Source: Dehalococcoidia bacterium (lineage in GTDB: Bacteria; Chloroflexota; Dehalococcoidia; Lucifugimonadales; UBA2985). From it: 46,356 bases of DNA. The stretch covers positions 15,086 to 61,441 of the forward strand of contig JACVQK010000008.1 in NCBI GenBank assembly GCA_015661155.1, in the 5' to 3' direction. The position numbers and the translations under genes were made by a program. The notes under the pieces were generated by a model, which was given only the letters and a program-made list of their open reading frames with translations, was not told where the DNA came from and made no database searches. Every line of letters begins with the position of its first letter. The first letter of the stretch is position 1. This document shows, piece after piece, positions 11,523 to 18,773 of the stretch.

Positions 11523-11771
11523 GTGGCGACGGTGAACAGGGGAACCCTGGCGATAGTCATGCAACTGGTGGGGGTGGGGTGGTACCTCGCCACGTGCATA
11601 ATCATGGGCCTCTTGGGAGGCCTGTGGCTTGACAGAAAGCTGGATACGGTGCCTGTTTTTAGCTTGATGGGGACGGCACTTGGTACGGCCCTGGCCTTTT
11701 ACGGCACGTACAAGTTGGTGTTGCCCCTTCTCAACAACCAGGGGCCAAGCAAGAAGAACGGGGAGAAATAG
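11523..11771 (+). CDS. AtpZ/AtpI-family ATP synthase assembly protein
   Basis: An 82-residue protein with two membrane helices (about 10-30 and 44-66) and a Lys-rich tail, at the position of atpI/atpZ in bacterial ATP synthase operons. Its GLLGGLWLDRKL segment is typical of this family, which helps assemble the c-ring or the enzyme and may bind Mg2+. GTG at 11523 is used. A second GTG at 11532 is possible because there is almost no leader and no clear ribosome site. Confidence 0.8.
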   Translation: MATVNRGTLAIVMQLVGVGWYLATCIIMGLLGGLWLDRKLDTVPVFSLMGTALGTALAFYGTYKLVLPLLNNQGPSKKNGEK

Positions 11772-11778
11772 CCCGACC

Positions 11779-12741
11779 ATGACACCCAGGCTCAAGCGGA
11801 TCATGGCTCTCAGCGCTGTCGTGGTGGTCGCCCTGCTGGTCGCCGGCCTGGCTACTGGAGCCATTGGGGCATCCCTGACGGGCAGCGAGAGCTTCCTCCC
11901 TGAGCCGGAGATTCACATGCCTCCTCAGAAGGTGTTCGTCACCGATATCGTGGAGGGCCATGAGGGTGACGCGCCTGAAGAGGAGCACGCAGCAGGGACC
12001 GTTGGCGCTGGCGACGGATTCGTCCTCACCAACACCATGCTCTCTTCCTGGATTGTAAGTGTGCTCCTGATTGGGCTTTTCTTCGCCGCCACCCGGCGCA
12101 TGGCCCTGGTTCCCCGGGGGTTGCAGAACCTGATGGAGATGGCGGTGGAGGCGCTGCATGGCTTCGTGGAGGGAGTGGCGGGGCATTCCAACGCCCGGCG
12201 GTTCTTCCCCATAATCGCCACCATCTTCCTCTTTGTGATGTTCAACGCCTGGATTGGCCTGTTGCCCATTTACCCCAGTCTGGGTTTCCGGGATGAACAC
12301 GGCATCATCGTGAGGCACCTGCTGCGCCCGGCGGGGACAGACCTGAACATGCCCCTGGCCCTGGCCCTCACCTCCTTCGTCTTCGTGGAGTTCTGGGGAT
12401 TCAGGCTTCTGGGCCGGCACTACGTCGGCAAATTCATTCGCCTGGAGAACCTGAGGCGGGGCAACTTCCTCCAGGTCCCCATAGACCTTTTCGTGGGGGC
12501 GCTGGAGCTCTTGAGCGAGTTCGTGCGCATCATAAGCTTCACCTTCAGGCTTTTCGGCAACATGACCGCGGGGGAGATACTGATCCTGGTGGTGACCTTC
12601 CTGGTGCCTTTCGTGGCGCTGCTTCCCTTCTATGGGCTGGAGTTGCTGGTGGGCTTTGTTCAGGCCCTCATCTTCGCCGGCCTTACCCTGGTGTTCGTGG
12701 TGGTGGCGGTAACCCCTCACGGCGAGGAGGAGCATTCTTAG
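11779..12741 (+). CDS. atpB: F0F1 ATP synthase subunit a
   Basis: A 320-residue membrane subunit that forms the proton half-channels against the c-ring. The essential arginine is Arg257 in FTFRLFGNMTAGE, and Gln295 sits in the last helix (QALIFAGLTLVF). Five or more hydrophobic helices run from residue 88 to 312. An N-terminal extension of about 80 residues has one hydrophobic stretch (10-31) and an acidic, His-containing segment (EGHEGDAPEEEH), which is longer than in many relatives. The C-terminus is His/Glu-rich (PHGEEEHS). The ATG at 11779 follows the atpZ stop by seven bases. Confidence 0.95.
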   Translation: MTPRLKRIMALSAVVVVALLVAGLATGAIGASLTGSESFLPEPEIHMPPQKVFVTDIVEGHEGDAPEEEHAAGTVGAGDGFVLTNTMLSSWIVSVLLIGLFFAATRRMALVPRGLQNLMEMAVEALHGFVEGVAGHSNARRFFPIIATIFLFVMFNAWIGLLPIYPSLGFRDEHGIIVRHLLRPAGTDLNMPLALALTSFVFVEFWGFRLLGRHYVGKFIRLENLRRGNFLQVPIDLFVGALELLSEFVRIISFTFRLFGNMTAGEILILVVTFLVPFVALLPFYGLELLVGFVQALIFAGLTLVFVVVAVTPHGEEEHS

Positions 12742-12758
12742 AGCGGGAGGTCAGAGAG

Positions 12759-12854
12759 ATGGAGATAGTGTTCCTGGCCCTGGCAATCGCGGGCGTTGGC
12801 CTGCTGGCAGGCATTCTGGGCGGGATATTCGCCCTTTACACCAAGATCGAATGA
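12759..12854 (+). CDS. 31-residue single-helix membrane peptide between atpB and atpE
   Basis: A small unrecognised gene encoding 31 residues: a short MEIVF start, one hydrophobic helix (about 4-27) rich in small residues (AGVGLLAGILGG), and a charged YTKIE end. GGGAGG (12745-12750) stands eight bases before the ATG, a strong ribosome site. The frame is intact and begins 17 bases after atpB. The GxxxG-like spacing suggests helix packing, for example against subunit a or c. Size and position recall the small extra F0 peptides found in some ATPases, but I cannot place it in a named family. It could be an assembly factor, a regulatory peptide or a divergent duplicate of a c-subunit helix. Confidence 0.7.
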   Translation: MEIVFLALAIAGVGLLAGILGGIFALYTKIE

Positions 12855-12906
12855 CAGATGCCGTAGATGCTCTTCTGGCGATCTGCTAGACAGCACTGAA
12901 CGATAA

Positions 12907-13146
<240 letters not shown>

Positions 13147-15798: not shown

Positions 15799-16053
15799 AT
15801 GGGACTTGTCCGTTGCGACCGTCATGGGGCTCCAATGGGGAAGAGACACTATGTTCGCTGTGTAGACCCTCTCGGCTATCCGCAAACTGCGGCTATCTGT
15901 GGGCTCAAAGACTGTTACGAACCCGGTCGAGTTTGGTTGGATGAGGACGATGTTAAAGTCTACAATGAGGGCAGGCGCGTTATTGACCTTCCTACTGCTG
16001 CTGCGAAGGTTGAGGTGGAGTATGGGGAGTGCAGAGGGGCGAAGCCCCTTTGA
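15799..16053 (+). CDS. 84-residue Cys-containing protein inside the ATP synthase operon
   Basis: Not recognised as a named family. It begins nine bases after atpA with GGGGGAT before the ATG and is in step with the operon. Cys6, His9, Cys21, Cys34 and Cys39 (CDRHG, RCVDPLGYP, ICGLKDC) could form a small metal site, followed by VWLDEDDVKVYNEG and a hydrophobic strand. The last eight residues (ECRGAKPL) and the TGA stop are encoded by a family B repeat at 16029, so the original end may have been different. It is not a known ATPase subunit. A zinc-ribbon-like accessory protein is one guess. Confidence 0.65.
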   Translation: MGLVRCDRHGAPMGKRHYVRCVDPLGYPQTAAICGLKDCYEPGRVWLDEDDVKVYNEGRRVIDLPTAAAKVEVEYGECRGAKPL

Positions 16054-18449: not shown

Positions 18450-18773
18450 ATGCTGGAGTTCATAGTACAGTCGCCCAGGAACAGGCCCGATCTGGTGGAG
18501 GTGCGCTACGACTGCCAGTGCGGGTGCAAGCCGCGAGCCCGCTACGAGAGGGGTAGCGACGAGGCCAACTTCGAGCACTGCTGCTGCGGGCAGGTCCATT
18601 TCGTGGGTGCCCGAGCGGAGGAACGCCTGAAAGCCTACCTGGGTGAGCGCTCCGCCCAGGGTCTGGATGCAGAGGTGGGGGAATACTCCATCCACGCTTT
18701 GCAGGTGAAGGCCCCGTGGGGTGAGCCGGTGCCGGTGGCCTACGCCCTGCCGGCCATGCACAAGAAACACTAG
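18450..18773 (+). CDS. 107-residue Cys/His-rich protein between atpD and atpC
   Basis: Not recognised. It begins ten bases after atpD with an excellent AAAGGAGGCGG ribosome site. The first half has a dense cluster of metal-type ligands: Cys22, Cys24 and Cys26 (DCQCGC), then His43, Cys44, Cys45, Cys46 and His50 (HCCCGQVHF). The second half is an ordinary alpha/beta stretch without cysteines, ending in MHKKH. Binding of zinc, copper or an iron-sulfur centre is plausible, and Zn2+ is the conservative guess. It has no membrane segment or signal peptide. Its place inside the ATP synthase operon suggests coordinated expression. No function is assigned. Confidence 0.7.

Follow-up and report, generated by a model that had tools for sequence, protein, structure and literature searches.

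A conserved small gene between atpB and atpE in Dehalococcoidia encodes a predicted single-helix membrane peptide, a candidate accessory of the ATP synthase Fo complex

Does the short open reading frame (ORF) lying between the genes for subunits a and c of a Dehalococcoidia ATP synthase encode a protein, and might that protein belong to the Fo motor? The bacterial F-type ATP synthase is usually described as having eight kinds of subunit, a set regarded as fixed. The ORF is found in a window of 46,356 nucleotides (the whole stretch of DNA that we analyzed) on contig C37 of a 1.8-Mb draft genome, in which the peptide has one place. A preliminary description of the window had reported the frame, a strong GGGAGG ribosome site at ideal spacing and its location between the two F0 subunits in mutual contact; reading the sequence confirmed the frame and the site, and Pfam matches of the two neighbors (PF00119 for atpB, PF00137 for atpE) confirmed the location. 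The features of the locus are as follows.

11523–11771, + strand: atpZ/AtpI-like gene that heads the atp operon (PF09527, E 3.7e-13)
11779–12741, + strand: atpB, ATP synthase subunit a, directly upstream of the small ORF (PF00119, E 1.1e-40; stop codon TAG at 12739–12741)
12745–12750, + strand: Shine-Dalgarno (SD) sequence GGGAGG of the small ORF, with an 8-nt spacer to the ATG at 12759 (read from the sequence)
12759–12854, + strand: small ORF, gene for a predicted 31-amino-acid single-helix small membrane protein (ATG at 12759; TGA at 12852–12854, included)
12905–12913, + strand: SD sequence of atpE, AAGGAGGAG, a strong site of its own, separate from the small ORF (read from the sequence)
12916–13146, + strand: atpE, ATP synthase subunit c, directly downstream of the small ORF (PF00137, E 4.1e-18; start codon ATG at 12916)

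The translated product of the 12759–12854 frame has 31 amino acids, MEIVFLALAIAGVGLLAGILGGIFALYTKIE. The frame had been called too small for routine gene calling, which needs correcting: the usual lower limit of common gene finders is 90 nt, and the 96-nt ORF sits just above it, so some pipelines may call the gene. Two further ORFs lie within the same operon. Between atpA and atpG, 15799–16053 (+ strand) would encode a putative orphan of 84 amino acids with several cysteines, which had no Pfam match and no match in 29 relatives. Between atpD and atpC, 18450–18773 (+ strand) encodes a 107-amino-acid cysteine-rich protein, also without a Pfam match, of which 5 of the 29 relatives have copies that are 55–74% identical; the copy in genome G004 shares the atp contig, lying ~5.5 kb downstream of atpB, and those of the other relatives are on other contigs.

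To collect the corresponding gaps from relatives, most of which are metagenome drafts, we searched for subunit a in 60 related genomes and in named GTDB genomes (80 loci, from Dehalococcoidia and SAR202-cluster drafts) and for subunit c across 250 genomes from the window's order, and then retrieved 94 further gap regions. An intact homologous ORF was present in 45 of the 157 distinct atpB–atpE gaps, each with one hydrophobic helix. These ORFs span 31–38 codons (most commonly 32), begin with ATG in 41 of the 45 cases and are preceded in 42 by an SD-like site of at least four bases; their median start is 29 nt past the atpB stop codon and their median end 56 nt ahead of the atpE start codon. The gap itself has a median length of 76 nt without the small ORF, as opposed to 147–365 nt with it. 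The family consensus, M[ED][VI][LV]ILxLVVxxVG[LI]AAAALGG[VI]FA[IL]YASRQD, comprises an M[ED] start, a hydrophobic segment some 25 residues long, then Y27 and a terminus of charged or polar residues (ASRQD or TKIE, for example), with a small residue at alignment position 14 in all sequences, at 17 in 97%, at 18 in 87%, at 21 in 91% and at 25 in 73%. Neither the ~110 relatives' gaps lacking the gene nor 49 readable gaps from Chloroflexota of other orders and classes contained a comparable hydrophobic ORF with an SD site; across both sets the nearest were a 60-amino-acid TTG frame in L259 and a weakly hydrophobic 25-amino-acid frame in L273, both without an SD site. The recurrence of an intact, SD-led hydrophobic ORF in so many relatives marks it as more than a chance frame.

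The substitutions within these ORFs have the character of protein evolution. Using pooled Nei-Gojobori counts, we obtained pN/pS ratios for the small-ORF frame of 0.19 for the 10 sequences of the f41 clade, 0.17 for the 5 of the f7 clade and 0.34 for the 4 from the family of the window itself, and ratios of 0.89–6.9 for the remaining two forward frames of the same three sets, with values above 1 for both of these frames in f41 and f7. Pooled over 43 alignable sequences the ratio was 0.56, a comparison in which synonymous sites are near saturation. Identity at the three codon positions was 0.54, 0.72 and 0.36, respectively (20 sequences), with third positions drifting, and Rfam returned no RNA element. 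The codon-position pattern and the low pN/pS are the signature of a protein and do not fit a spacer or RNA element. The preliminary description had proposed looking in relatives for a conserved helix of 25–40 residues with low dN/dS, and this is the pattern that emerged, with pN/pS of 0.17–0.34 within clades. By these sequence measures, the small ORF is a real protein-coding gene under purifying selection on its amino acids.

A profile of the family matched 46 of the 250 genomes of the window's order, once per genome and across 29 of 97 genera and 16 families, and at least 43 of the 46 matches lay on the strand of the atpE match, 56–161 nt upstream of it. Among the other three, the match in G045 was seen upstream of atpE in locus L029, that in G361 was split over contigs and that in G494 is left uncounted. 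In a phylum-wide sample of 400 genomes the profile matched two, both from the window's order. G309, a genome assigned to a different order, has an atp locus with the peptide (G309:C16:145927-146019; L114) that is the same as in G015, perhaps through a misplaced contig, or else through transfer. Two lineages that fall outside the main clade had divergent ORFs for a small helix at the equivalent position (L048:1209-1301 and L074:4937-5050); these were counted by place, SD site and helix only, and because the profile misses both, the family may extend beyond our count.

Mapped onto a tree of atpB (155 rows, with broken copies scored as present), presence of the gene required 5 changes, compared with a mean of ~40 for shuffled labels. 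This distribution reads as an early gain followed by loss in two SAR202-type clades, of 33 and 12 sequences, and in L014, L021 and L022; L048 and L074 fall outside the main clade, so the gain cannot be pinned to one point. Beyond the 45 intact ORFs there were three broken copies, with an in-frame TGA in L008 (L009, of the same genus, has the gene intact), a frameshift in L016 and a degraded remnant in L044, and these may reflect draft errors in some cases or ongoing loss. In the clades without the small gene, atpB and atpE remain intact. Lost from two large clades and from a number of single lineages, and broken in three further copies, the peptide is dispensable for the ATP synthase as such. 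The preliminary description had suggested a peptide of this lineage; our searches likewise point to a lineage-specific gene, and these same losses make it less than universal there. Through this natural gain and loss, closely related motors that have or lack the peptide are available for comparison.

Searches of Pfam, NCBIfam and the PDB yielded only noise-level matches to hydrophobic helices, and no PDB chain matched the small-protein profile. The best recurrent match, Psb35 (E 0.003 at best, in 7 of 22 members), we took as helix resemblance. A partial duplicate of subunit c was rejected, because the profile comparison with AtpE scored 1.0, below the median of 5.3 for shuffled columns, and a piece of AtpB likewise, with nothing above shuffled columns. 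Membership in the AtpI/AtpZ family (PF09527) found no Pfam match, and comparison with the AtpZ profile was no better than with shuffled columns; the CydX family was absent from the Pfam and NCBIfam matches, and the context is atp rather than cydAB. Within these libraries, then, the peptide is unrecorded, as first suggested. We found no published report of such a gene in the open-access literature (most subscription journals lay outside our coverage), and the 31-residue single-helix gene is apparently undescribed so far.

What might the peptide do? AlphaFold2 predicted one helix over residues 2–30 (mean pLDDT 95), a result that is expected for a lone hydrophobic peptide and is silent on partners. 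In the C-terminal half, small residues gather on one helix face (p = 0.018 at 100 degrees, a modest value from one of four such tests), and conservation as such favors a helical face at p ~0.05 only. The one-sided face of G14, A17, A18, G21 and A25 fits helix packing. Columns changed in both loss clades include a few positions in subunit a helices at about L151, L270, V271 and F293 of the window's protein and one near the N terminus of subunit c, and among such columns no loss-specific change in subunit c stands out; resting on two clade-level losses, these shifts are no more than a hint at partner residues.

These observations suggest a mechanism in which the ORF, translated from its own ribosome site between the genes for subunits a and c, would yield a single-span membrane protein of 31–33 amino acids. 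Given its acidic N terminus and basic C terminus, the positive-inside rule would have it insert as one helix with the N terminus outside and the Arg/Lys-bearing C-terminal end inside. The conserved small-residue face could then pack against subunit a or the c ring, and the packed peptide could stabilize the Fo complex or tune its assembly or activity. The strict gene placement, the selection and the packing face together point to a membrane partner encoded alongside, subunit a or c, and because whole clades dispense with the peptide, it should tune or stabilize the motor rather than carry its core function. The preliminary description had cast the product as an F0 accessory or assembly peptide; the strict synteny fits that proposal, whereas binding and function are read from gene position. 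We consider it moderately probable that the peptide is a lineage-specific, dispensable, single-span accessory protein bound to Fo, a reading in which we infer membrane insertion, topology, Fo binding and role from sequence and gene order.

Several other explanations merit weighing. The peptide could be a transient assembly factor that departs after helping to insert or oligomerize subunit c or after linking subunit a to the ring. Its gene is directly before atpE, sister clades manage without it, and a role in c-ring assembly has been reported for Atp1/CGL160 (PMC11124002); against this, the operon already has an AtpZ/AtpI-like gene (PF09527), and we found such a gene in both carriers and losers of the peptide, albeit with a detection pattern that under-detects AtpZ. 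We regard a transient assembly role as somewhat unlikely. The peptide could instead be a membrane protein that is unrelated to the ATP synthase and merely expressed from the atp operon, as many small membrane proteins have no known role and the link to Fo is one of gene position. This explanation we find improbable, given that nearly all profile matches, across 16 families of the order, lie directly before atpE, with no other location seen in the genomes searched.

Quite improbable, too, is a translated leader, in which translation of the short frame would set the translation rate of atpE, so as to supply the large amounts of subunit c needed, and the product would have no importance of its own. 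The spacing of the ORF, so close behind atpB and before atpE, suits such a leader, but the amino acids, including those of the C terminus, are under purifying selection while third positions drift (pN/pS 0.17–0.19 in f7 and f41), Rfam offers no RNA element, and atpE has a strong SD site of its own. As for a chance frame or the shadow of another frame, the gap is GC-rich and the ratio for the antisense −1 frame is also lowered, as expected from the degenerate positions that it shares with the coding frame; conservation, selection and a phylogenetically coherent distribution make this explanation scarcely credible.

If the peptide is an accessory of Fo, a stronger form of the proposal would make it a new stoichiometric single-helix subunit of the bacterial Fo beside subunit a or the c ring, gained once in the Dehalococcoidia lineage, lost in several SAR202-type branches and a prokaryotic counterpart of the mitochondrial supernumerary subunits. 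We put this forward tentatively, as a real possibility that falls short of an even chance. If true, it would mean that small helices are added to Fo in bacteria as well, here by a gene between those of the two subunits forming the proton path. Because SAR202-type bacteria abound in the deep ocean, the carriers are more than a curiosity.

Among known systems, the mitochondrial Fo subunits 8, j and k are single helices next to subunit a, and the peptide would resemble them as a small single-span Fo helix, though they are eukaryotic and longer. AtpI, Atp1 and AtpZ (PF09527) are likewise small membrane proteins of the atp operon, and Atp1-type proteins act in c-ring assembly (PMC11124002), but they are larger, occupy a different place, show no relation by profile comparison and are already represented in the window by a gene of their own (11523–11771). 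AtpTheta of cyanobacteria, a lineage-specific small ATP synthase regulator of ~8 kDa that inhibits ATP hydrolysis (PMC11124002), is more than twice as long as the peptide, and is set apart here by description rather than sequence comparison. Other bioenergetic complexes provide precedents for operon-encoded single-helix subunits in CydX, CydY and CydZ (PMC4325964), and CcoM, the 36-amino-acid small subunit of cbb3 oxidase (PMC10433244), is similarly a small respiratory-complex subunit, albeit of another complex and with no sequence match in the libraries searched. The nearest likeness is perhaps to CydX of cytochrome bd oxidase, which has 37 amino acids, is encoded in the operon, varies in sequence, is limited to part of the tree and often goes unannotated (PMC4325964). 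CydX serves a different complex from a different position, has no sequence relation to the peptide and is a proven subunit, whereas the 31-amino-acid peptide is a candidate only; as a short, variable, operon-borne component of a bioenergetic membrane complex with a restricted distribution, the peptide would be comparable to CydX in kind, and not a member of its family.
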